Of a DNA stretch of 64,000 bases, positions 1-17,888 are shown one piece after another (position 1 is the stretch's first letter; each line of letters begins with the position of its first letter). The DNA lies in contig NZ_APNH01000002.1 in the NCBI RefSeq assembly GCF_040361275.1, positions 620,001 through 684,000 on the forward strand, given 5' to 3'. The translations under genes were made by a program, and so were the position numbers. A model generated the notes under the pieces. That model made no database searches, was not told the origin of the DNA, and saw only the letters and a program-made list of their open reading frames with translations. The stretch comes from Salinisphaera sp. T31B1 (GTDB lineage: Bacteria > Pseudomonadota > Gammaproteobacteria > Nevskiales > Salinisphaeraceae).

Positions 1-1919
1 CGCCCGAGGAACACGCCGAAAGCAGCGAAAAGGAAGAGCGCCGCGTAGGCCCGGGCCGGCTGGCCGCCCTCGCCCTGGGGGCGCTCGGGGTCTCCTACGG
101 GGATATCGGCACCAGCCCGCTGTATGCGCTGCGCGAATGCTTCCGGGGATCGAGCCACCTCATGCCGACCAGTGCCAACGTGCTCGGCATCCTCTCACTG
201 ATCTTCTGGGCGCTGGTCCTGGTGGTCTCGACCAAATACATGCTGGTCGTCACCCGCGCCAACAACAATGGCGAAGGCGGCATGCTGGCGCTGGTGGCGC
301 TGCTCAACCCCTGGCGGCGGGATGCCGGGCGTCACTCACGGCTGCTGCTCAAGCTCGGCGTGTTCGGCAGCGCCCTGCTCTACGGCAGCTTCATGCTCAC
401 GCCCGCTATATCGGTATCCAGCGCGGTCGAAGGCCTGAACGTGGCCACCTCGATCTTCCGGCCCTATGTGATCCCGATCACGATCGTGATCCTGATCGGG
501 CTGTTCGCGATCCAGAGCCGCGGCACCGAGGCCGTGGGGCGCTTCTTCGGCCCGGTGATGATCGTCTGGTTCGTCACGCTCGGCGGCCTGGGACTGTATG
601 GCATCGTGCAGGAGCCCAGCGTGCTCGGCGCGATCAACCCCTGGCACGGGGTGGACTTCTTCGTGCGTAACCGCGGTACCGGTTTCGTGGTGCTTGGTGC
701 GGTGTTCCTGGTGGTGACCGGCGGCGAGGCGATGTATGCCGATATGGGGCATTTCGGGCGCCGGCCGATCCAGCTCGCCTGGTTCGTGCTGGTGTTGCCC
801 GCGCTGCTGCTCAATTACTACGGCCAGGGCGCGATGCTGCTGCATTCGCCCGGTGAATCGGCCAGCCAGCCGTTCTATCATCTGGCGCCGGACTGGGCGC
901 TCTATCCGCTCGTGGTGCTGGCGACCTGTGCGACCGTGATCGCCTCGCAGGCGGTGATCTCCGGGGCCTTCTCGCTCACCCGTCAGGCCGTCCAGCTCGG
1001 CCAGCTGCCGCCCATGCGGCTGTTCCAGACCTCGTCCGAGGAGTACGGCCAGATCTACGTGCCCACACTGAACTGGCTGTTGATGCTGGCCACCATCGGT
1101 CTGGTGCTCGGCTTTCGCAGTTCGGACAACCTCGCCTGGGCCTACGGGGTGGGCATCTCGTTCGCGATGACGATCACTACCTGCCTCGCCTTCTTCATCA
1201 TGCGCGAGCGCTGGAGATGGCCGCTCTGGGCCGCCCTGCCGCTGACGCTGGGTTTTCTTGCCATCGATCTGCCGTTTTTCGGCGCCAATCTGCTCAAGAT
1301 TCCCCACGGCGGCTGGTTCCCCGTGGTTACCGCGATAGTAGTGTTCACGCTCATGGCGACGTGGCGCCGCGGCCGCGAACTGCTGGCCAAGCGCCTGACC
1401 GAGGACGACCCGGTGCCATTGGAGGAATTCATCCATAACCTGGCGACCGAAGACACGGTCCGTGTGTCCGGCACTGCCATTTTCCTGGCCAGCAGCGATG
1501 CCGGCACCCCACCAATGCTGCTGCATCATCTGGAGCACAACCAGGTGCTGCACAAGCGCGTACTGTTGCTGACCGTACGCACCGAGGACGTGCCCCGAAT
1601 CCCGGCCGCCGACCGGCTGGAGATCAAGGAGCTCGGTGAAGGGGTGTATCGCGTATTCGCCCGCTACGGCTTCATGCAGAACCCGAACGTGCCGGTCGCG
1701 GTACGGCTGTGCGAGCGCTTCGGCATCGAGATCGATACCGACAGGGTCACCTATTATGTCGGTCGCGCCACCATCATCCCCACCGACGACGTGCCCGGCA
1801 TGATGCTCTGGCGAGAGAAGCTGTTCGCCTACATGTCGCGCAACGCGATCCAGCCGGTCTCGTATTACAAGATCCCGCCGGAGCGCGTTATCGAGCTCGG
1901 GCTGCGGGTCGAGATCTAG
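1..1919 (+). CDS. kup: Kup-family low-affinity potassium:proton symporter, 5' end outside window
   Basis: Inner-membrane K+ uptake protein of the KUP/HAK/KT family. The frame is open from base 3, so the start codon lies before the window; 638 residues are visible, about the full size of E. coli Kup (622), so only a few N-terminal residues are missing. The family signature GVSYGDIGTSPLYALRE is read near the visible N-terminus, followed by about a dozen hydrophobic segments and, from about base 1380, a soluble C-terminal domain ending at TAG 1919. The ATG at 162 opens the same frame but lies inside the first conserved helix region, so it is not the start. No terminator was seen downstream. Confidence 0.95.
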   Translation, partial: PEEHAESSEKEERRVGPGRLAALALGALGVSYGDIGTSPLYALRECFRGSSHLMPTSANVLGILSLIFWALVLVVSTKYMLVVTRANNNGEGGMLALVALLNPWRRDAGRHSRLLLKLGVFGSALLYGSFMLTPAISVSSAVEGLNVATSIFRPYVIPITIVILIGLFAIQSRGTEAVGRFFGPVMIVWFVTLGGLGLYGIVQEPSVLGAINPWHGVDFFVRNRGTGFVVLGAVFLVVTGGEAMYADMGHFGRRPIQLAWFVLVLPALLLNYYGQGAMLLHSPGESASQPFYHLAPDWALYPLVVLATCATVIASQAVISGAFSLTRQAVQLGQLPPMRLFQTSSEEYGQIYVPTLNWLLMLATIGLVLGFRSSDNLAWAYGVGISFAMTITTCLAFFIMRERWRWPLWAALPLTLGFLAIDLPFFGANLLKIPHGGWFPVVTAIVVFTLMATWRRGRELLAKRLTEDDPVPLEEFIHNLATEDTVRVSGTAIFLASSDAGTPPMLLHHLEHNQVLHKRVLLLTVRTEDVPRIPAADRLEIKELGEGVYRVFARYGFMQNPNVPVAVRLCERFGIEIDTDRVTYYVGRATIIPTDDVPGMMLWREKLFAYMSRNAIQPVSYYKIPPERVIELGLRVEI

Positions 1920-2153
1920 CGCCGCGGCTCGGTCGTCACGCAGCGGCCGTGGCCCTGCCCGACGGAACAGTCGATCGCCTTTACGGTCAGGTCTGACGTT
2001 TGCAACCGGCTGGCCGGCGCGCGGTGCACGGGCGATACCGCGCGCCTTAGACACCTGTAGCGGGTCGGCCGGTCGCGGGCTCACGATGTGCACGACGACA
2101 ACCAATCGTGCTATCAAGCCTGCTGCACTCATCTGCTTCGATAAGGATTCCTC

Positions 2154-3104
2154 ATGCCGCTCACCCCTGAAGTCGCCGGTGTTGTCGAGCGAATGCGCGA
2201 AGCCGGAATTTCGTTCGCCGACTTCGAGTTGGCCGAGGCACGCCAGTTCTATATCGATACGCTGGCGGCCAGCGGTGGCGAACCGGTGCCGATGGGCGAG
2301 GTCGTCGAGCACGAGCTTGCGCTCGACGGCCGCAGCCTGCGCGCGCGGCGTTATCGGCCGGAAGGCCTGGCCGAGGGCGCGGCCCCCACGCTGGTCTACT
2401 TTCATGGCGGTGGTTGGGTGCTGGGCGATCTGGAATCGCACGACCGCGTGTGCCGTCAGCTGGCCCAGCGCGCGGGCTGCCAGCTTGTCGCCGTGGATTA
2501 TCGTCTGGCGCCGGAGCATTGCCTGCCCGCGTCGTCCGACGACGCGATCGCCGCTTATGGCTATCTGGTGGCACAGGCGAGCACGTTCGATATCGATGTC
2601 CAGCGGCTTGCCGTGGGCGGCGACAGCGCGGGCGGGCATCTGTCGGCGGTGGTCGCCCTGGCCGCGCGCGATGCCGGCTGGCCGCTGGCCTTGCAGGTGT
2701 TGATCTACCCGGCCACCGACCTGCGCGAAGCGGCCAGAAAATATCCGTCCAAGGGGCGCAACGCGAACGTGCCGCCGCTCACGGCCGAGCTCATGGCCTG
2801 GTTCGGGGCACGCAGCGTGGATGCCAATACCGACCCGCTCGACTGGCGGGTATCGCCGATGCTGGCCGACACGCTGGCGGGCACGGCGCCGGCACTCGTC
2901 CTCACCGCCGGCGCCGACGTGCTCATGGACGAGGGCGTGCTCTATGCCGCGCGCCTGGCTGATGACGGCGTCGAGGTCGACCACGCCCACTACCCGGGCG
3001 TCATTCACGGCTTTATTGAAATGCAGGCCTGGCTGGCGGCCACGAGCGACGCCATGGACCGCATCGCAACGGCGGTGCGTGCGCAGCTGAAAATTACCGG
3101 CTAG
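2154..3104 (+). CDS. alpha/beta hydrolase, hormone-sensitive-lipase type esterase
   Basis: A 316-residue carboxylesterase/lipase of the HSL (family IV) group, probably cytoplasmic as no signal peptide is seen. The oxyanion-hole motif HGGG is at residues 84-87, the nucleophile elbow GDSAG puts the catalytic serine at 148, the acid is probably D255 and the histidine H285 (in VIHGF). Length and motif order are normal for the family. An AAGGA about 8 bases before the ATG supports the start. It stands alone between kup and a leftward gene, so its substrate cannot be inferred from context; acyl esters of short-chain acids are typical for the family. Confidence 0.92.
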   Translation: MPLTPEVAGVVERMREAGISFADFELAEARQFYIDTLAASGGEPVPMGEVVEHELALDGRSLRARRYRPEGLAEGAAPTLVYFHGGGWVLGDLESHDRVCRQLAQRAGCQLVAVDYRLAPEHCLPASSDDAIAAYGYLVAQASTFDIDVQRLAVGGDSAGGHLSAVVALAARDAGWPLALQVLIYPATDLREAARKYPSKGRNANVPPLTAELMAWFGARSVDANTDPLDWRVSPMLADTLAGTAPALVLTAGADVLMDEGVLYAARLADDGVEVDHAHYPGVIHGFIEMQAWLAATSDAMDRIATAVRAQLKITG

Positions 3105-3226
3105 GCCTTTGCTTCGTACGCGCTGTGTAACCAGGCGTCGCGGGCAGACCGCGCCAGCCGTGGATGCACGCGTCCGCGATTGATCCGCGCCAAGCACACG
3201 CCCAGGCGTGAGGGCCGGCGTCGTGT

Positions 3227-3925
3227 CTAGGGTTGGGCGCCGTTTGCGGCCATACGGGCCATGATCTCGGGTCCGTCGTTCGACGGGCTGCCCACACGCG
3301 TATCGATCGGCCAGCTCTCGTATCGGTTATGGCGTTCGTGGTCGAGCACCTGCCGGGCCTGCTCGATATCCAGATCCGGATCAAGCCAGTGGCGTGCGCC
3401 TGCGGGCGTAAGCGCCTGCGGCTGACGACTGTGGATGTGTTCGATATCGGCGGTCGGCACGCCGGTGAGAATGGCGAACGTGACCTGGCCCGCGGCGGCG
3501 TGATCGCTTGGCAGACGCGCGGCCTTGGACCATATCCCTGCGAAGAAAAACGGCTGGGCGTCGGCGGGGCGGATTGCATAGGGCTGTTTCGCCTGGCCGG
3601 TTCGCTGCCATTCAATCCAGTAGTCGGCGGCTACAAGGCACCGCTGCTGCGCGAACGCCCGGGCGAACAGTCTCTTGTCGGCAGCGGTCTCGGATCTGGC
3701 GTTGATCGGTGCGAGCCGGGTATCGCTCGCCCAGTTCGGCACGAACCCCCACCAGGCCGGGCCAAGCGTCGTCGCGCCGTCATCGGGGTTGATCAGCCCG
3801 ACCAACTGAAACGTGCCCGGCGGACGGTTATAGCTTGCGCTGTCTTCAAAGCGCGGCGACACGGTCGCACCGATGACTCGGGCACTGTCCTCGACGGCGG
3901 TATAACGTCCATAGCGACCACACAT
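3227..3925 (-). CDS. yedK: SOS response-associated peptidase (SRAP/HMCES family, abasic-site crosslinker)
   Basis: A 232-residue SRAP-domain protein. Known members bind abasic sites in single-stranded DNA and form a covalent thiazolidine crosslink through Cys2, protecting the lesion. The start is fixed by the invariant MCGRY N-terminus, because the Met must be removed to expose Cys2; the frame is open further upstream (to 4081) but that extension is rejected. The active-site set of E. coli YedK is kept at the same numbers where I can count: C2, N75 and E105, with the histidine at H165 in an HSRQP motif (HxRMP in most relatives). No LexA-type box was recognised upstream, despite the family name. 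Confidence 0.93.
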   Translation of the reverse strand: MCGRYGRYTAVEDSARVIGATVSPRFEDSASYNRPPGTFQLVGLINPDDGATTLGPAWWGFVPNWASDTRLAPINARSETAADKRLFARAFAQQRCLVAADYWIEWQRTGQAKQPYAIRPADAQPFFFAGIWSKAARLPSDHAAAGQVTFAILTGVPTADIEHIHSRQPQALTPAGARHWLDPDLDIEQARQVLDHERHNRYESWPIDTRVGSPSNDGPEIMARMAANGAQP

Positions 3926-4239: not shown

Positions 4240-5616
4240 CTACTGCGCGATCATCAGCGACTTGCTGTTGACGAACTCACGCATGCCGAAGCCGCCGTGC
4301 TCGCGTCCGTAGCCGCTGTCCTTGACGCCGCCAAAGGGCAGGTTCGGCTGGGCGATGTAGTAGCCGTTGATGCTGACCATGCCGGTATCGAAATGGTCCC
4401 GCGCGAGACCCACGGCGCGCTCCTCGTCTTCGGAGAAGATGCCGCCGCCCAGGCCGTAAACCGAATCGTTGGCGATACGGATGGCATCGGCTTCGTCCTT
4501 GGCCCGGATCAGCGAGGCCACCGGGCCGAACAGCTCGCCGTCATAGGCGGGCATGCCGGGCGTGACGTTTTCCAGAACGGTCGTGGGATAGAAGAAACCC
4601 TGTGCATCGGGTACTTCGCCACCGATCGTGGCGGTCGCGCCCTTCTCGACCGATTCCTTGACCTGCTCGTGCAATTTGTCACGCAGGTCTTCGCGGGCCA
4701 GCGGCCCGAGTGCGGTGTTCTGATCCGACGGGTCGCCGAACTCGACCTGTTTCATCTTCTCGACATAGGCGTCGCGAAACTTGTCGTAGACCGAATCCAC
4801 GATCACGAAGCGCTTGGCGGCGACGCAGGTCTGGCCGTTGTTGTTGATCCGGCCGGTGACACAGGCATTGACCGCCTTGTCGATATCGGCGTCTTCGAGT
4901 ACCAGGAACGCGTCGTTGCTGCCGAGTTCCAGCACCGTTTTCTTGAGATGCTGGCCGGCGTCCGCGGCAATCTTGCGACCGGTCGCTGCGCTGCCGGTGA
5001 AGGTCACCCCGCGTACGAGCCGATGTTCGGTGACCTGGCTGGCCTGCTCGTCGTGAATATAGAGCACGTTGAAGACGTTCTCGGGCACGCCGGCTTCGCG
5101 GAAGATGTCTTCCAGCGCTTCGGCACAGCCCCAGACGTTGGGCGCATGCTTGAGCAGCACCGTATTGCCGGCCATCAGGTTGGCGATGGTATAGCGGATC
5201 ACCTGGTAGAACGGGAAGTTCCAAGGCTGGATGCCGAAGATGACGCCGATCGGCTGGTGCGTGACGAGCGCGCGACCGCCCGGCAGATCGCGGGTTTCGT
5301 CGCCCAGGAATTCGGCCGCGTGGTCGGCGCTGTAATCGCAGATACCCTTGCACAGGTCGATTTCGCCCGGCGCCTGCGCGATGGGCTTGCCCATCTCGTC
5401 GGTGGCCAGACGAGTCAGCCGGTCCTTGTGCGAGACCAGCAACTCGCCGACCTTGCGGATGAGCGCGCCGCGATCGTCGAACGACCGCTGCCGCCAGTCG
5501 AGGAACGCCTCGTGGGTCTGCTCGATTTTCCGGCGAAGTTGCTCATCCGAAATGGTATCGAATTCGCGGATGGTCTGGCCCGTGGCCGGGTTGATGCTCT
5601 TGACGGTGTTCGTCAT
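4240..5616 (-). CDS. NAD(P)-dependent succinate-semialdehyde dehydrogenase-type aldehyde dehydrogenase (Sad/YneI-like)
   Basis: A 458-residue soluble aldehyde dehydrogenase. The length and the N-terminus (SINPATGQ) match the short Sad/YneI group, which oxidises succinate semialdehyde to succinate. Catalytic features: PWNFP with N133, cofactor lysine region at K156, FTGSAATG (207-213), general base E230 in LELG and nucleophile C264 in NGQTC. The ATG at 5616 is preceded by CTGGAG on the minus strand. The gene is a single unit: a terminator follows at 4165-4191 and a 430-base gap precedes it. No GABA transaminase is near, so the exact substrate is unproven. Confidence 0.9.
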   Translation of the reverse strand: MTNTVKSINPATGQTIREFDTISDEQLRRKIEQTHEAFLDWRQRSFDDRGALIRKVGELLVSHKDRLTRLATDEMGKPIAQAPGEIDLCKGICDYSADHAAEFLGDETRDLPGGRALVTHQPIGVIFGIQPWNFPFYQVIRYTIANLMAGNTVLLKHAPNVWGCAEALEDIFREAGVPENVFNVLYIHDEQASQVTEHRLVRGVTFTGSAATGRKIAADAGQHLKKTVLELGSNDAFLVLEDADIDKAVNACVTGRINNNGQTCVAAKRFVIVDSVYDKFRDAYVEKMKQVEFGDPSDQNTALGPLAREDLRDKLHEQVKESVEKGATATIGGEVPDAQGFFYPTTVLENVTPGMPAYDGELFGPVASLIRAKDEADAIRIANDSVYGLGGGIFSEDEERAVGLARDHFDTGMVSINGYYIAQPNLPFGGVKDSGYGREHGGFGMREFVNSKSLMIAQ

Positions 5617-6048
5617 ACAGGACTCCAGAGATCGTAGAAAGACGCCTGGCGCGATGATGGCGATCGACCGCGTGGCGCCGTGTCACGTGATGGACCTGCC
5701 GGTAACCGGGGGTTTTTTCAAGCCGTGATCTACAATCCATCGTTCGCATAGCTACTGCATCGGCGCGAGCGGCCAGACTCCGATGTGCCCCACACGCCGC
5801 GGTTCGACGGACGCAACGCCGCCCGGGCGGCCCGCGACCAGCCGGTATGGAAAAATGAACGATCGGCGGGGGCTTGGTCGCTCGCTTCGAGTATCGCCAA
5901 CGACCGGCCCGAGGCGGGTTCGAACCGGCCAGGTTCGCATGGGTGGCCCGGCATGCGATTGCGTCGTGTTACTCGGGTGACAGCGCGCGGGTTGTCGATA
6001 CCGGTGGCCGACGGCTGCCCGTTCCGATCGGTCTCGCCGCCGGCGGGT
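5617..6048. other. 432-base gap with small palindromes, no gene recognised
   Basis: This is the region upstream of the leftward aldehyde dehydrogenase gene. It holds an 8-base palindrome TCACGTGA (5683-5690) and CCGGT-A-ACCGG (5699-5709), followed by a run of six T (5713-5718). These could be operator sequence for the dehydrogenase, but there is no supporting promoter pair I trust. No credible coding frame is seen. Confidence 0.4.
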
Positions 6049-6636
6049 CTATTCGTCTCGGCTCGTCTGGTGGAAATGCTGCTTGACGAGCGCCCGTGCA
6101 CGCTGCCATAACGCCGGCGAACCGCGTTCGATCGTCGGGCCGTAGCGTTCGTGGACCTGCTGCTCCAGGACGCCGTTTTCGGTCCACGTGCCGCCGCCAG
6201 TGAGAGTGTTCAGCAACAGCGGCTGCAGGCGATCCAGGGCTTTGGCGAACCGCGCCTCCGGGGTTTCGGCGGCTTCGAACTCGTGCCAGAGCGCCTTGAG
6301 CCGCAATGCCTGGTCGTCGGGGAGCAGGCCGAACAGCCGCTCGGCGGCTGCGTGCTCGCGGGCCGCGACGCCCCCGCTGTCATGGTTGCCGTGGATCGGC
6401 GCATCGCCCGCGTCGATCTCGACGATGTCGTGGACCAGCAGCAGCTTGATGACCCGGGCCGTATCGACGGCTTCGTCGTCTGCCAGGACCAGCGCGAACA
6501 TCGCCAGATGCCACGAGTGTTCGGCAGAATTCTCCCGGCGACTGCGGTCGGCGAGCGGCGATTGACGCACGACGGTTTTCAGGCCGTCGATTTCCGCGAG
6601 GAATGCGAGCTGTTCGGTAAGACGGTCTTTGCTCAT
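6049..6636 (-). CDS. HD-domain phosphohydrolase, YfbR/HDDC2-like 5'-deoxynucleotidase family
   Basis: A 195-residue metal-dependent HD phosphohydrolase. Metal ligands are visible in order: the histidine in NSAEHSWHLA, the HD pair in LLVHDIVEIDAGD, and a later conserved aspartate region. This is the pattern of the COG1896 group, whose E. coli member YfbR dephosphorylates deoxynucleoside 5'-monophosphates. I place the start at the ATG 6636 (MSKDRL), because the upstream extension to 6738 is low-complexity and unlike the family. No good Shine-Dalgarno is seen. It is flanked by gaps on both sides, so it is probably monocistronic. Nucleotidase activity is inferred from family only. Confidence 0.85.
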   Translation of the reverse strand: MSKDRLTEQLAFLAEIDGLKTVVRQSPLADRSRRENSAEHSWHLAMFALVLADDEAVDTARVIKLLLVHDIVEIDAGDAPIHGNHDSGGVAAREHAAAERLFGLLPDDQALRLKALWHEFEAAETPEARFAKALDRLQPLLLNTLTGGGTWTENGVLEQQVHERYGPTIERGSPALWQRARALVKQHFHQTSRDE

Positions 6637-10162: not shown

Positions 10163-11614
10163 ATGAATCGGTTCTCCGACACGGCCTCCGCCTCCCCGTG
10201 GGCCAATCCGTTGTTGCTGGTGATGGTGCTTGCCGCGTTCACGAGCGTGCTCAACAACAGCATGGTGAACGTGGCGATTCCGACCATCAGCCGGCATCTG
10301 AACGTATCGCCCAGCCTGTCGGGCTGGGTGATCACGGCGTTCTCGATCGTGTTCGCAACCGGCGTGGCCCTGTACGGCCGCGTGTCCGACAGCTACAACT
10401 TCCGTACGACGTTTCTGGCCGCACTGGTGATCTTCGGAGCCGGTTCGCTGACCTGCGCGCTGGCGCCGACGTTCGGTTTCCTCGTGGGCGGACGCGCACT
10501 CCAGGCCGCCGGCGCGGCCGCGATCCCGTCGCTGGCGTTCGGCTCGGTGGCGCGCCTGTTCGCGCCCGGCCGACGAGGCGTAGTGTTCGGCACGTTGTCC
10601 TCGGCGGTCGGACTCGGTGCGGCAACCGGCCCATTGATCGGCGGTCTGGGTGTAAGCGCTTTCGGCTGGCGTGTCCTGTTTTACGGCACGCTGGTGGTGA
10701 TCTGCCTGCTGTTTTTCGCAGCCTGGCGTTTTCTGCCCGACCTGAATGCCGAGCGCGAACCCCAGCCGCATCGTTTCGTACGGCTGGATCTGCCCGGCGG
10801 ACTGCTGCTGGCATTGGGCGCGGCCGCGCTGCTCTACGGCGTGACCGCAGCCAACCACGTGGGTCTGGCCGCGCCGCGAGCCTGGGGAACGCTGGCGGCG
10901 GCGATCCTCATGCTGACGGGTTTTGCCGTACGTATCCGCAGCGCGGCCTATCCGTTCGTGCCGCCGAGGCTGTTCGCCAACCGGCAATTCCTGTCGGCCT
11001 CGGTCATTGCACTGCTGTCTCAAGGCGCGTTCATCGGCGGGGGACTTTTCCTCACCCCCTTGTTGTTGATCAACGAGCTGGGCATGTCGGCATTTCAGAC
11101 CGGCCTGGTGATCGCGCCCGGCGCTTTTGCGGTCGCCCTGCTGGCGCCTACGATCGGCCGGCTGTCTGACCTGTTCGGCCCCCGAGCGGTGCTGGGTATC
11201 AGCCTGTCCTGCCTGCTCGCCGGCCTGTTGTTCATGTCATCGTTCGCGGTCGGCGGCGCACCGTGGAAGGTGGCCGTGGCCCTGGTAATCGCCAGTACGG
11301 GCTATGCAGGCGTGACCTCGCCGGCGGCCAACGCCGCGTCCAAGGCGCTGTCCAGCGAAATCGCCGGCGTTGGGTTCGGCATCTATCAATTGTTCTTCTT
11401 CATGGGCGCGGGCACGGGCGCGGCCGTGTTCGGTTCCGTGCTGTCTGCGCGCCAGCGCATCGGCGACGCGGCCTTCAACCCCTTGTACGCCGGCGGCGAT
11501 GCGACCGCGGCCTATTCGGACGCCTATCTCGTGGCCTGTGTGGCAGTGCTATTCGCCCTCGGGTTGCTCATCGGTCTGGGTCGGGCCGACGCCCGACCGG
11601 TCGCCGACGACTGA
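10163..11614 (+). CDS. MFS drug:H+ antiporter, DHA2 (14-helix) type
   Basis: A 483-residue inner-membrane transporter. About 14 hydrophobic segments, the motif FATGVALYGRVSDSYN (motif A region) after helix 2 and the GATGPLIGG motif C at about residues 155-162 place it with DHA2 exporters such as EmrB-like multidrug pumps. No EmrA-type membrane fusion protein is adjacent, so it probably exports to the periplasm by itself. No regulator of a recognised type is next to it. The substrate is unknown. Confidence 0.9.
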   Translation: MNRFSDTASASPWANPLLLVMVLAAFTSVLNNSMVNVAIPTISRHLNVSPSLSGWVITAFSIVFATGVALYGRVSDSYNFRTTFLAALVIFGAGSLTCALAPTFGFLVGGRALQAAGAAAIPSLAFGSVARLFAPGRRGVVFGTLSSAVGLGAATGPLIGGLGVSAFGWRVLFYGTLVVICLLFFAAWRFLPDLNAEREPQPHRFVRLDLPGGLLLALGAAALLYGVTAANHVGLAAPRAWGTLAAAILMLTGFAVRIRSAAYPFVPPRLFANRQFLSASVIALLSQGAFIGGGLFLTPLLLINELGMSAFQTGLVIAPGAFAVALLAPTIGRLSDLFGPRAVLGISLSCLLAGLLFMSSFAVGGAPWKVAVALVIASTGYAGVTSPAANAASKALSSEIAGVGFGIYQLFFFMGAGTGAAVFGSVLSARQRIGDAAFNPLYAGGDATAAYSDAYLVACVAVLFALGLLIGLGRADARPVADD

Positions 11615-12805: not shown

Positions 12806-13019
12806 TCGCACCGGATCACTCGGACCCACCGACCGACACAAGCCCGCGGCGGGCTACCGCAACCAGTGGCGCAGGGCGCTTGCCGACACCTCTTTCGAGC
12901 GTTTGGCAGGCCCTGTCCTGAACCTGCGCGGTGGGCGCGACCGTCGCGGCGGCCGACGACAACCGCCTCACCGAGCTGTTGCGTGCGCTATACATTGAAT
13001 GGTCTGATCGTGCGTGCTA
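12806..13019. other. leader region upstream of the riboswitch
   Basis: With the riboswitch that follows, the gap between genes is 370 bases. It holds a GC-rich palindrome AGCCCGC-G-GCGGGCT (12841-12855), possibly the end of the previous transcript although it has no T-run. A TATACA (12990-12995) could be the -10 box of the riboswitch transcript, without a convincing -35. Confidence 0.35.
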
Positions 13020-13029
13020 GCTTGCCTGG

Positions 13030-13130
13030 CGATTGCACCTAGGGTTCCGCGCCCCGTCCGGCGGACTGGACCGAGCGGTGTCACGGTGCCCAGGTACCGA
13101 CAACTGAAGGGATAAAAGCCTGGAGGTCTC
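13030..13130 (+). ncRNA. ykkC-class riboswitch, best fit guanidine-I
   Basis: The core motifs of the ykkC-yxkD RNA family appear in order: CTAGGGTTCCG (13039-13049), a short GC hairpin, ACTGGACCGAGCGG (13065-13078), ACGG opening a hairpin CGGTGCC/GGTACCG (13084-13099), and GGGATAAAAGCC (13109-13120). The intact GGGTTCCG and CTGG-CCGAG segments fit the guanidine-I subtype. In the ppGpp/PRPP subtypes, from memory, the first is GGGATCC-like and the 3' end differs. The outer P1 stem is not obvious, so the ends are approximate. It lies directly before an EamA transporter gene. Class is secure; ligand is inferred from the consensus. Confidence 0.85.
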
Positions 13131-13172
13131 ATACATGGCCGACGCCATACGCGTCGGTCCCAGGGACCTTTT
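13125..13172 (+). promoter_or_regulatory. expression platform of the riboswitch: competing hairpins over the ribosome-binding site
   Basis: Three pairings compete. Hairpin 1 is CCGACGC-CATAC-GCGTCGG (13139-13157). Hairpin 2 is GGTCC-CAG-GGACC (13156-13168), followed by TTTT, so it looks like a terminator; it also covers the AGGGA (13162-13166) that would be the Shine-Dalgarno for the ATG at 13176. The two hairpins share bases 13156-13157. The end of the aptamer, GGTCTC (13125-13130), can pair with GGGACC (13163-13168) and so open hairpin 2 while enclosing hairpin 1. Confidence 0.65.
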
Positions 13173-13175
13173 CGC

Positions 13176-14036
13176 ATGACGCTTGCCGCCCTTGCCCTCA
13201 TCCTCATCGCCGCGTTCCTGCATGCGGGATGGAATCTTCTCGCCAAACGCAGCAACGGGGGTGCCATCTTCGTATGGTTGTTCGCCGCATGCGCCTGTCT
13301 GATCTATGGCCCGTTCGTAGCCCTGCTCGCGCTGGCCTACCCGCCCCATCTCGATGGTTTGGCCTGGGCGTGCGTCTTGGCGACGTCGCTGCTGCATCTT
13401 GGCTATTTCCTGTCGCTTCAGCGCGGCTACCGGAGCGGGGATCTGTCGGTGGTCTACCCGCTGGCGCGGGGCACCGGGCCACTGCTGACGATGCTGCTGG
13501 CGGTTCTGCTGCTCAACGAGCAGCCGAGCGGCCTGGCCGTGTTCGGCGCGGGTCTGATCGTAGCGAGCGTATTCATCCTGTCCGGCGGGCCGGGCAATGT
13601 CGCCCGGCGGCCGCAGCCGGCCGCAATCGGCTACGGGCTGCTCACCGGCACGCTCATCGCCAGCTATACGCTGCTCGACAAATACGCGGTCAGCGCGGTG
13701 CTGGTGCCGCCGTTGCTCTATGACTGGCTCGGAAACCTGGGCCGCACGCTGCTACTCACCCCGTATGCGCTGCGGTGTCGCAGCCAGATCGCGGCCGAGT
13801 GGCGAGCCAACCGGAACGCGATTATGGGCGTCGCGATCATGAGTCCGCTGGCCTACATCCTCGTGCTGACAGCAATGACGTTCACCCCGGTCAGCTATGT
13901 CGCGCCGGCCCGGGAAGTCAGTATTCTGATCGCCGTCGTGCTCGGGGCGCGGCTGCTCGATGAAGGCGCCTTGCGCAGTCGCCTGATCGCGGCCGTGGGC
14001 ATGGTCTGCGGCATCGCGGCCCTGGTGCTCGGCTGA
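13176..14036 (+). CDS. EamA/DMT-family transporter under ykkC-class riboswitch control
   Basis: A 286-residue, ten-helix transporter of the drug/metabolite superfamily. Two EamA halves are visible, the first starting LALILIAAFLHAGWNLLAKR and the second after about residue 150; the VVYPLARGTGPLL and VAPAREVSILIAVVLG segments are typical of each half. The ATG lies four bases after a terminator-like hairpin that also hides the AGGGA ribosome-binding site, so expression should respond to the upstream riboswitch. Known guanidine-I-linked exporters are mostly small SMR proteins (Gdx). Guanidine export by this larger EamA protein is an inference from the leader RNA. Confidence 0.88.
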   Translation: MTLAALALILIAAFLHAGWNLLAKRSNGGAIFVWLFAACACLIYGPFVALLALAYPPHLDGLAWACVLATSLLHLGYFLSLQRGYRSGDLSVVYPLARGTGPLLTMLLAVLLLNEQPSGLAVFGAGLIVASVFILSGGPGNVARRPQPAAIGYGLLTGTLIASYTLLDKYAVSAVLVPPLLYDWLGNLGRTLLLTPYALRCRSQIAAEWRANRNAIMGVAIMSPLAYILVLTAMTFTPVSYVAPAREVSILIAVVLGARLLDEGALRSRLIAAVGMVCGIAALVLG

Positions 14037-15087: not shown

Positions 15088-15561
15088 ATGACCCAATCGA
15101 CCACGCTGACGGTCAACGGCGAGAAGCACACCGTCGATATCGCCCCCGACACGATGCTGCTGTATGTGCTGCGCGACAACCTCGGCCTGAAGGGACCGAA
15201 ATTCGGCTGCGGGCTGTCGCAATGCGGCGCATGCACGGTGCTGGTCGGTGGATCGGCGGTGCGCTCCTGCGTGACACCCGCGAGTTCCATGCAGGAGCAG
15301 GACATCACGACCCTCGAAGGGCTCGGAACGCCCGACGATCCGGACCCGCTGCAGCAGGCGTTCATAGACGAGCAGGCCGCCCAGTGTGGCTACTGCATCA
15401 ACGGCATGATCATGCAGGCGAAGTCGTTCCTGAACGAAAAGCCCGATCCCGGTCGCGATGAAATCAAGCAGGCGCTGAACAACAACCTGTGCCGCTGCGG
15501 CACGCATATGCGAATCGTGCGCGCGGTCGAACGGGCAGCCAAGAACGGAGCCAAGGCATGA
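15088..15561 (+). CDS. iorA: isoquinoline 1-oxidoreductase-type small subunit, [2Fe-2S] protein
   Basis: A 157-residue iron-sulfur subunit of a molybdenum hydroxylase. The N-terminal plant-type ferredoxin cluster has C41, C46, C49 and C61; the C-terminal helical domain carries C100, C103, C135 and C137 (CGYC and CRC). This is the standard set of the xanthine dehydrogenase/aldehyde oxidase small subunits. The stop overlaps the next start in ATGA, so the two are translationally coupled. The complex hydroxylates N-heterocycles or oxidises aldehydes in this family; the actual substrate here is unknown. Confidence 0.93.
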   Translation: MTQSTTLTVNGEKHTVDIAPDTMLLYVLRDNLGLKGPKFGCGLSQCGACTVLVGGSAVRSCVTPASSMQEQDITTLEGLGTPDDPDPLQQAFIDEQAAQCGYCINGMIMQAKSFLNEKPDPGRDEIKQALNNNLCRCGTHMRIVRAVERAAKNGAKA

Positions 15562-17888
15562 AGAACGGCGACAACACTCTGACAGGTGCAGGCGGCGGCA
15601 GCCAGCCGTCCGGCCTGAGCGATCTCGGCGCGAGCCGGCGGCAGTTCCTGAAGGCTTCGGGTGGCCTCGTGCTCGGCTTTTCCCTGTTCGGCTCGGGCCT
15701 GGCCACGGCCGCAGAGAGCATCGCCACCGGTCAAACCGATGTCCATGAGGCGAGCCAGCTCGATTCATGGCTGGCCGTGCATCCGGACAACACCGTGACG
15801 CTGTTCACCGGCAAGGTCGAGGTCGGCAACGGCAACGAGACCTCGCTCGCCCAGATCGCCGCCGAGGAGCTCTATTTCCCGGTCGACCAGGTGGTCGTCG
15901 TCATGGGCAGCACGGACCGCACTATCGACCAGGGCCCGACCTACGGCAGCCGTACTATTCCCTATGCCGGCCCCCAGATTCGGCATGCGGCCGCGGCCGG
16001 GCGACAGGCGCTGCTGTCGCTGGGCGCCAAGCATTTCGACCTGCCGGCCAATCAACTGTCTACCCAGAACGGCCGGGTGGTCGTGATCGGAGACCCCTCG
16101 CGCTCGGTGGACTACGGCACGCTCGTTGGCGGCGAACGCTTCAATGTCGACATCGGCGCGACCGGCAACAGTTTCGGCATGGACGTGGCGCCGGACGTGA
16201 AGGTCAAGGACGAAACGGCCTATTCGACTGTCGGCCAGTCGGTGCCACGCAAGGACATCCCCGAGAAGATGTTCGCGCAGTACAGCTATATCCAGGACAT
16301 CAAGGTCGACGGCATGTTGCACGGTCGTGTGGTGCGCCCGTACGGCGTGCAGGCGACGCTCGAGCACGTCGACGACAGCGGCCTGAAGGATATCCCGGGC
16401 TTCGTGCAGATCGTGCAGGAAAAGAACTTCCTCGGTGTCGTCGCCGAGACTGAGTGGGGCGCTATCCAGGCGGCCAGCAAGCTCGGCTCGGTACTGCACC
16501 CGGAAGGCCGCAAGGCCGGCCAGGCGACCTGGTCGGACTGGAATGGCCTGCCGGACCAGGACTCGGTCTGGAAGACCGTGCGCGAAACGGCCGGCACGGA
16601 CAACTCGGTGGCCTCCAATGGCTCGGTCGGGCTGGCCCGTCATTCCGCGGCCAAGACGGTGAAGGCGACGTATCTCACACCTTTCCAGATGCATGCCTCG
16701 ATCGGCCCGTCCTGTGCCATCGCGGACGTGAAGAAGGACAAGGCGACGTTCTGGGCAGGCACCCAGATGCCGCACCAGGCCAAACGCGACATGGCCAAGA
16801 TACTCGGCATCGACCCGTCGAACATCACGCTCTACTGGCACGGCGCCTCGGGCGCCTACGGCCGCAACGGCCTCGAACACGTGATCGCCGACGCAGCGTT
16901 CATGTCGCGTGCCGTCGGACGACCGGTGCGGGTGCAGTGGATGCGCTGGGACGAGCACGGCTGGGAGCCCAAGGGCCCGCCCATCGCTCAGGACCTGGAA
17001 GGCCTGATCAACGAAAACGGCAAGGTCATCGGCTGGCAGCATCACATCTGGGAGCCGACCACCGGTGACACGCGCCTGATCGCGGCCGATCTCGTGGGCC
17101 ATCCGCACGGTTCGGAGGGCTCGGGCAACGGTGCCATCACCTATGCCTACACCTTCGACAACGCCGATGTGGCCTACCACGGCGAAGGACGCGTAGGCCT
17201 GCTGACTGCCTGGCTGCGCTCGCCGGGCCAGTTCGAGACGACCTACGCCATGGAGGCGTTCATCGACGAGCTGGCCGTAGCGACCGATACCGATCCGCTG
17301 AGCTTCCGGCTGGCAAATCTCAAGGACCCGCGTGCGCTTGACGTGCTGCAGGCGGCCGCCCGGAAGTACGGCTGGACTTCGCGCAAGCCGAGCGAGAACA
17401 CGCATGATGGCAGTGACACGGGCAAGGCCAAGGGTCGCGGTATCGCCTGGGTCAACCGCGACGACAGCTACGTGGCTACGATTGCCGACGTGGAGGTCGA
17501 CCGCAGTTCCGGCGAGATCCAGGTCAAGCGGGTCGTGGTTGCTCACGACTGCGGGCTGGTGATCAATCCGGATGCGCTGCGCAACCAGATCGAGGGCAAC
17601 GTCGTCCAGTCGCTGAGCCGCACGCTGCACGAGGAAGTGACGTTCGACAATGCGCACGTGACCAGCCGTGACTGGATGGGCTATCCGATCCTGCGGTTCA
17701 ACGAATTGCCGGACGATATCGAAATGGTCTTCGTGAACAATGCACCCGGACGCAAGAGCACTGGCGGCGGCGAGCCTTCGACCTGCCCGACCGCCGCAGT
17801 GGTCAGCAATGCCGTATACGATGCCATCGGCGTGCGGCTGCGTCAGACGCCGTTCCGCCCCGAACGCGTCAAGGCGGCCATGAGCTGA
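15558..17888 (+). CDS. iorB: isoquinoline 1-oxidoreductase-type large subunit, molybdenum-binding, Tat-exported
   Basis: A 776-residue catalytic subunit of the IorB group. The start at ATG 15558 overlaps the iorA stop (ATGA); the frame is open further upstream inside iorA, which is rejected. A Tat signal (SRRQFLKASGG followed by a hydrophobic run to about residue 50) indicates folded export with the cofactor, and IorA would be carried along. The molybdopterin cytosine dinucleotide binding regions and the C-terminal GGGEPSTCPTAAVVSNA segment are as in the family. No cytochrome subunit or cofactor chaperone gene lies next to it, so the electron acceptor must be encoded elsewhere. Confidence 0.92.
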   Translation: MKNGDNTLTGAGGGSQPSGLSDLGASRRQFLKASGGLVLGFSLFGSGLATAAESIATGQTDVHEASQLDSWLAVHPDNTVTLFTGKVEVGNGNETSLAQIAAEELYFPVDQVVVVMGSTDRTIDQGPTYGSRTIPYAGPQIRHAAAAGRQALLSLGAKHFDLPANQLSTQNGRVVVIGDPSRSVDYGTLVGGERFNVDIGATGNSFGMDVAPDVKVKDETAYSTVGQSVPRKDIPEKMFAQYSYIQDIKVDGMLHGRVVRPYGVQATLEHVDDSGLKDIPGFVQIVQEKNFLGVVAETEWGAIQAASKLGSVLHPEGRKAGQATWSDWNGLPDQDSVWKTVRETAGTDNSVASNGSVGLARHSAAKTVKATYLTPFQMHASIGPSCAIADVKKDKATFWAGTQMPHQAKRDMAKILGIDPSNITLYWHGASGAYGRNGLEHVIADAAFMSRAVGRPVRVQWMRWDEHGWEPKGPPIAQDLEGLINENGKVIGWQHHIWEPTTGDTRLIAADLVGHPHGSEGSGNGAITYAYTFDNADVAYHGEGRVGLLTAWLRSPGQFETTYAMEAFIDELAVATDTDPLSFRLANLKDPRALDVLQAAARKYGWTSRKPSENTHDGSDTGKAKGRGIAWVNRDDSYVATIADVEVDRSSGEIQVKRVVVAHDCGLVINPDALRNQIEGNVVQSLSRTLHEEVTFDNAHVTSRDWMGYPILRFNELPDDIEMVFVNNAPGRKSTGGGEPSTCPTAAVVSNAVYDAIGVRLRQTPFRPERVKAAMS

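Follow-up and report, generated by a model that had tools for sequence, protein, structure and literature searches.

Within the ykkC riboswitches, guanidine-I aptamers carry a conserved adenosine (A46) at a position that is occupied by a pyrimidine (C49) in the PRPP and ppGpp aptamers. According to the available text of PMC6031431, this position alone sorts the gene contexts of ykkC RNAs, and the split between guanidine and other contexts is strikingly complete. The same text reports that in the PRPP aptamer G48, C49, C77 and C78 contact the 5-phosphate or its metal, and that C75 pairs with G96. Subtype 2d is the branch of the class that controls EamA (originally phn_DUF6) and TauE transporters, and its ligand was still undetermined as of Sherlock and Breaker 2020 (available text of PMC7266159). 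No later ligand assignment for 2d was found by a text search of a literature collection outside which most subscription papers lie.

The DNA analyzed here in full (64,000 nucleotides; hereafter the window) contains a ykkC aptamer at 13028-13127. When positions 12900-13300 were submitted to cmscan, this region matched the Guanidine-I family (RF00442) over model positions 1-107 of 107 with 49.4 bits and an E-value of 5.4e-8, and RF00442 was the sole Rfam family matched up to E 10. The curated gathering score of RF00442 is 63, and because 49.4 bits fall short of it, a gathering-threshold Rfam scan of the whole 64 kb window gave zero entries. The same region is the single RF00442 match at E <= 0.001 across the 4.36 Mb genome. 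No tRNA gene was found in the window.

The elements of the aptamer to which we refer below are:

13028-13127, + strand: ykkC aptamer, full length by the RF00442 model

13035-13039, + strand: 5' strand of P1 (GCACC), partner 13077-13081 (GGUGU), from the RF00442 alignment and covariation with relatives

13039-13049, + strand: conserved core CTAGGGTTCCG, from the sequence

13084-13099, + strand: P3 hairpin CGGUGC-CCAG-GUACCG, read from the sequence and one of the helices in the covariation test

13109-13120, + strand: conserved core GGGATAAAAGCC, from the sequence

A preliminary description made from the letters of this DNA had proposed a ykkC-class aptamer with all core motifs in order. Both points are borne out: CTAGGGTTCCG, GGACCGAGC (13068-13076) and GGGATAAAAGCC lie where they were said to lie, the covariance-model search gave a significant full-length match, albeit below the cut-off, and a transporter gene follows downstream. 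The same description had found the P1 stem unusually unclear, and here we disagree, as P1 is formed by GCACC and GGUGU and covaries with the relatives described below. P1, P2, P3 and the conserved cores are all present in the aptamer according to the RF00442 alignment and the covariation analysis.

The subtype of the aptamer was read from the marker position, defined as the base that follows CCGAG and assigned to A46/C49 by the order of residues:

13076, + strand: subtype marker, C in the window versus A in guanidine-I (A46; C49 in the PRPP aptamer), from the sequence, the census and PMC6031431

Among 115 distinct aptamers of the fetched loci the marker base was A in 101, G in 6 and C in 8. 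A second pattern census of 120 distinct aptamers gave 103 with A, 6 with G and 11 with C, the latter being the window and 10 relatives; the pattern does not catch the Thioclava copies, and these were inspected by eye. The tail CACGGnGGGnnAAAAnCCCGGGAG was present in 102/103 A-marked and 6/6 G-marked aptamers and in none of the 11 C-marked ones. In total, this strict guanidine-I tail (CACGGnGGG...CCCGGGAG) occurred in 108 of the 109 A- or G-marked RNAs, and it is missing from the window. Position 13076 thus has the pyrimidine of subtype 2 in place of the guanidine-I adenosine and, together with the missing tail, this means that the window RNA lacks two hallmarks of guanidine-I. The aptamer is therefore probably not a guanidine riboswitch. 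That it is a divergent guanidine-I riboswitch driving a guanidine exporter would agree with Guanidine-I being its best Rfam family, and with the occurrence of guanidine-I RNAs above the cut-off (77.9 to 89.8 bits) in 8 of the 13 other genomes of the genus. However, the window RNA scores 28 to 40 bits under these RNAs of its own genus, the guanidine-I tail is missing and the marker is a C at the very position for which the published split between gene contexts is strikingly complete (PMC6031431, available text), so that we regard a guanidine-I identity as very improbable. In the window's own genome the only RF00442 match is the variant, versus guanidine-I RNAs in those 8 genus-mates.

Searches of further genomes placed this RNA among a small set of similar ones. 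In 61 related genomes, an RF00442 search whose filters can lose weak matches found the family in 21, above the cut-off in 20, the exception being the window's own genome. Similarly, when 369 genomes of the window's class, taken to be Gammaproteobacteria, were searched, 29 had a match, above the cut-off in 28, and the sole weak one was the window RNA. Matches were found in 43 of 398 genomes of the phylum, where the only further sub-cut-off ones were in the genomes G693 (58.4 bits), G506 (47.2) and G615 (42.6). All three of these RNAs are directly followed by an EamA gene, and in each the marker base is C. Using the G693 RNA as a blastn query, we obtained 16 plasmid records (Agrobacterium 9, Thioclava 5, Paracoccus 2), 9 of which were read. 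A covariance model, R1, was built from 12 sequences including the window and run over 337 genomes from the class to which G693 belongs, taken here to be Alphaproteobacteria. It matched 24 genomes and added two members (G943 and G874); among the other R1 matches listed, all but G693 itself had A or G at the marker. The resulting 14 relatives fall into two types, A with the 9 plasmids plus G693 and G506, and B with G615, G943 and G874. All 14 have a C at the marker and all 14 are followed by an EamA gene, which is intact in 12, in two pieces at locus L198 and represented by its first part only at L199. At L199, an Agrobacterium plasmid with the RNA at 6001-6113, the next annotated gene encodes a glycerophosphodiester phosphodiesterase.

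In the 369 genomes of the window's class, a further model, R2, gave two new hits, both weak (22.1 and 21 bits) and both rejected as chance by eye. Plasmid searches with either the window aptamer or a type B aptamer as query returned short pieces only. The genomes and plasmids searched yielded no close relative of the window RNA, and for this reason its expression platform is without comparative support. Such isolation among the searched genomes of genus and class, taken with a score under the Rfam cut-off, is what one would expect of a decayed, non-functional aptamer, but the core motifs are all intact and the helices remain paired despite deep divergence, which makes decay the least probable of the explanations that we weighed.

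The surroundings of the relatives were inspected as well. In G693 (locus L239) the RNA and EamA gene adjoin an apparent C-P lyase operon (about 1573-3438 and 4670-5720); PhnJ lies near the EamA gene at G693:C1:1821897-1822712, with ABC and amidohydrolase genes after it. This neighbourhood agrees with the name of the protein family TIGR03340 (phn_DUF6). Phosphonate breakdown was rejected as a general partner, as PhnJ occurs in only 2 of 6 RNA-bearing genomes and not in the window's own. On three Thioclava plasmids (L182, L201, L202) a DUF2322 gene follows the RNA-linked EamA gene, and a divergent gene for a GTP-binding protein lies opposite. Besides EamA, no constant partner gene was found in the neighbourhoods inspected.

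The structure of the aptamer is maintained across these relatives. In an alignment of 13 sequences (12 relatives and the window), which was fitted to a model of the same sequences and thus leans towards structure, 94.1% of cells were standard pairs and 13 of 27 pairs had changed on both sides, values that none of 500 shuffles reached. When the partner strand was slid, the paired cells dropped to 21-50%. Additionally, an end pairing resembling P0, of at least 5 bp, was present in the 13 relatives tested (of 14), as judged by complementarity that lacks a shuffle control; the strands are UCGAC/GUCGA in type A and CCAUCC/GGAUGG in L211. For the window, no P0 longer than 4 bp was found near the aptamer, and longer complements are out of place. 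The distance from a -10-like hexamer, picked by eye, to CTAGGG was 21-23 nt in all 14 relatives versus 15 nt in the window. With this 15 nt spacing, the predicted start of the window RNA falls after the place of the 5' strand of P0. A consensus scan found no promoter in the leader; comparison by eye suggests the following candidate:

12995-13023, + strand: putative promoter, TTGAAT (12995-13000), 17 nt, TAGCTT (13018-13023), with an RNA start near 13030, assigned by eye against the -10-like hexamers of the 14 relatives

The gene behind the aptamer encodes a transporter:

13176-14036, + strand: gene for an EamA/DMT-family transporter (Pfam EamA, E 3.1e-17), best NCBIfam match TIGR03340 phn_DUF6 at 143.1 bits, short of the curated cut-off of 288.15

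The proteins closest to its product are the EamA transporters of type B (49, 46 and 47% identity). We placed it in a protein tree of 50 rows together with 11 of the 14 RNA-linked relatives; the remaining 38 rows were unlinked homologues of our choice. The 12 RNA-linked rows and 5 unlinked ones form one 17-row region (support 90/87), within a tree in which the branch holding the window is not starred. The RNA label changes 5 times on this tree versus 11.1 times in shuffles, and none of 500 shuffles was as low. The tree does not demonstrate a single origin. Within the genus, a homologue at E <= 1e-20 was present in 1 of 14 genomes, namely the window's own, so that the gene and its RNA look acquired or retained alone. 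Upstream of the EamA gene lies a gene for a DHA2/EmrB-like efflux transporter (10163-11614), and downstream a pair encoding the 2Fe-2S and large subunits of a molybdenum hydroxylase (15088-17888).

EamA homologues outside the RNA-linked set were searched for similar leaders. A motif search upstream of the homologues at 80 loci (L022-L101) found no ykkC RNA, and looser motifs, applied to these and to L129-L152, recovered only the window's own RNA (L144), the rest being judged chance by eye. cmscan of 13 of the 80 loci found no ykkC RNA, and model R1 reached at best 10.4 bits in 33 of the 80 and nothing better in 27 further loci. The sampled EamA homologues are therefore mostly not under such an RNA. 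At four loci (L183, L185, L186, L188) an EamA homologue lacks the RNA and lies immediately downstream of a gene for a MurR/RpiR-type regulator, as if another sensor had replaced the RNA there. Regulators of this type often sense phosphosugars.

Taken together, we consider it likely that the window RNA is a ykkC riboswitch of the EamA-associated, orphan subtype 2d kind, held together with its transporter gene and absent from the searched genus-mates. As a candidate of a kind already on record, it is most likely a divergent member of subtype 2d, judging from the marker, the tail, the gene and the protein tree. In particular, the gene directly downstream belongs with those recorded behind 2d RNAs (EamA/phn_DUF6 or TauE), TIGR03340 being its best match even though below the cut-off. 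Overall RNA similarity does not place the window. A model (R3) made from 12 relatives with the window excluded, on an alignment produced with R1, which had included it, scored the window RNA at 36.2 bits over model positions 21-117 only. Among the 97 matches, which came from 92 sources, it ranked 48th; the other 96 lay in loci outside the 2d set that had been fetched with RF00442 or R1. R3 thus ranks the window no higher than guanidine-I RNAs, and overall similarity cannot separate 2d membership from a separate origin. The possible P0 of the relatives also counts against the 2d reading, as the subtypes for which the available part of the 2018 text (PMC5912903) mentions conserved end extensions do not include 2d.

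Given the outcome with R3 and a tree branch that is not starred, there is room for a different history, in which the window RNA is a separate ykkC variant derived from a guanidine-I RNA, and not specifically 2d, with the shared C and the EamA gene acquired by convergence. The missing P0 and CAAC in place of CACC in the pocket (see below) would fit such a history. However, the EamA proteins closest to that of the window are RNA-linked ones, and convergence would be needed for the marker, the loss of the tail and the gene together, which makes a separate derivation unlikely in our judgement.

The part of the pocket that distinguishes the window from its relatives is:

13101-13104, + strand: CAAC, aligned position by position with C75-A76-C77-C78 of the PRPP aptamer by our own mapping (residue roles from the available text of PMC6031431)

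This place reads CACC in type A and type B relatives, CACG in guanidine-I and CAAC in the window. In type A relatives, the C75 equivalent lies 21 nt before the G of CCCAG, just as 75 does before 96 (counted by eye). The window has a C at the equivalents of 49 and 78, an A at that of 77, and no P0; the C49 and C78 equivalents are kept as C in the relatives. From their sequence, these kept residues would favour a small anionic ligand, perhaps one bearing a phosphate or phosphonate, over a guanidine-like cation. This reading runs contrary to the published guess. A bolder and distinctly tentative version, which we think would more probably prove wrong, is that the ligand of the EamA-linked ykkC RNAs is a small metabolite with a phosphate or phosphonate group, sensed via the 5-phosphate corner of a PRPP-type pocket, the window copy being a P0-less form with the pocket cut down to that corner. 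If true, the ykkC scaffold would gain another class of ligand, with a charge opposite to that of guanidine.

Between the aptamer and the EamA start codon, the following elements were found:

13122-13130, + strand: aptamer 3' tail GGAGGUCUC, with G13123 as the likely equivalent of G96, partner of 13163-13171 in the predicted OFF fold (complementarity and folding)

13135-13179, + strand: 14-codon open reading frame MADAIRVGPRDLFA, preceded by GGAGG (13122-13126), its stop overlapping the EamA start (ATGA); read from the sequence, with translation presumed

13137-13159, + strand: inner hairpin GGCCGACGC/GCGUCGGUC, 9 bp, -15.5 kcal/mol by energy calculation

13156-13172, + strand: short hairpin GGTCC/GGACC followed by TTTT, -5.8 kcal/mol by energy calculation, outcompeted by the inner hairpin

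13162-13166, + strand: Shine-Dalgarno-like AGGGA, 9 nt ahead of the EamA start, from the sequence

The GGAGG that lies 8 nt ahead of the 14-codon frame is the aptamer's own 3' end. Neither this overlapping frame nor the C at the marker nor the 2d-like gene context had been pointed out in the preliminary description.

Three complementarities exist in this leader, namely 13139-13145/13151-13157, then 13156-13160/13164-13168 followed by TTTT at 13169-13172, and 13125-13130/13163-13168. The preliminary description had presented them as three mutually exclusive pairings; all three are real as complementarities, but the first and third nest and can form together. Its pairing of the aptamer 3' end (GGTCTC with GGGACC) holds up, since 13125-13130 and 13163-13168 are complementary and reach the Shine-Dalgarno region. 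The inner hairpin was calculated at -11.5 kcal/mol with 7 bp and -15.5 kcal/mol with 9 bp. Adding the tail pairing around it gave -18.4 or -22.8 kcal/mol, respectively, and extending the outer stem to 13122-13130/13163-13171 gave -26.2 kcal/mol. The short hairpin GGTCC/GGACC, to which both termination and Shine-Dalgarno masking had been ascribed, turned out to be the weakest option, with only four T and an empty terminator scan. As a switch it was rejected, given -5.8 versus -18.4 to -26.2 kcal/mol for the joint pairings and its competition with the inner hairpin (-11.5 to -15.5). One composite stem (13122-13171) would thus explain the leader better than three exclusive hairpins. In agreement with a local structure of this kind, the region 13118-13175 folds with a z-score of -4.07 and 1 of 200 shuffles was as good; the folds of the leader at 13028-13200 (z -0.92) and of 13128-13190 (z -0.70) are unremarkable. 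The outer stem uses the 3' end of the aptamer, so that the stem and the folded pocket are mutually exclusive, which is the usual riboswitch logic.

We further compared the predicted accessibility of the Shine-Dalgarno site and found that its mean unpaired probability rose from 0.18 to 0.23 when the aptamer was locked. The change is small because the freed site pairs into the coding region, and a translational mask is therefore plausible but unsettled by folding alone. Among type A relatives, a pairing of at least 6 bp between the tail and the ribosome-binding site was possible in the 10 tested (of 11). The three type B relatives offered weak pairing of this kind, at most 5, 7 and 4 bp, and both counts were made without a shuffle control. 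We infer translational rather than transcriptional control. The TTTT directly at the end of the composite stem would allow control by transcription termination at 13163-13172 instead of hiding of the ribosome-binding site, and the PRPP riboswitch studied in PMC5912903 works, by its available text, on termination. Yet there are four T only, three of them within the extended stem, no terminator was found in the leader by the terminator scan, and the 10 tested type A relatives can all pair their tail with the site of ribosome binding; termination is accordingly the less probable output, though the one alternative to which we still give appreciable weight.

The 14-codon reading frame offers another route, in which the aptamer tail serves as its ribosome-binding site and the ligand alters its translation and, via the ATGA overlap, that of EamA. 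The spacing of GGAGG to its ATG, the overlap of its stop with the EamA start and the covering of GGAGG by the OFF stem (predicted unpaired probability 0.04) are in line with this route. On the other hand, GGAGG would sit inside the pocket when ligand is bound and no comparable frame was noticed by eye in 13 relatives, and we think such coupling improbable.

For masking of the Shine-Dalgarno site by the composite stem, the following sequence of events can be envisaged. Without ligand, the tail (13122-13130) would pair with 13163-13171 around the strong inner hairpin, and this outer stem would bury the Shine-Dalgarno site and keep EamA off. With ligand bound, the nucleotides of the tail (the G96 equivalent and its neighbours) would be taken into the pocket, which would block the outer stem. 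The inner hairpin would persist and the Shine-Dalgarno site would be freed, so that the RNA would act as an ON switch through which the ligand turns on its exporter. ON polarity has been published for guanidine-I, 2a and 2b (PMC6031431, available text). ON polarity of the window RNA, the export role of EamA and the nature of the ligand are our suggestions by analogy and from the model.

The window RNA would represent a divergent third lineage and a new construct, outside the class in which the relatives were found. With a third lineage at hand, pocket nucleotides that appear constant (the marker and the equivalents of 75 and 78, all C) can be told from variable ones (77, P0), which would narrow the search for a ligand. 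The ligand of 2d, if found, would also indicate the substrate of this group of EamA transporters.

Compared with known systems, the window RNA shares with guanidine-I (subtype 1, RF00442) the overall fold with P1, P2 and P3 and the CTAGGGTTCCG and GGGATAAAAGCC cores, and differs from it by the C for A at the marker, the lack of the CACGGnGGG...CCCGGGAG tail and the EamA gene behind it. With the PRPP riboswitch (2b), by our mapping onto the available text of PMC6031431, it has in common the pyrimidine marker, a C at the equivalents of both 75 and 78, and a G available for the 75-96 pair, whereas it has an A at the 77 equivalent, no P0 and a transporter gene instead of purine genes. It is most like ykkC 2d, as compared by description, with the ykkC core, a non-guanidine marker and, directly downstream, an EamA gene nearest to phn_DUF6. 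From the relatives assigned here to 2d it is set apart by the absence of the P0 seen in the 13 tested, by CAAC for CACC and by an expression platform of its own.
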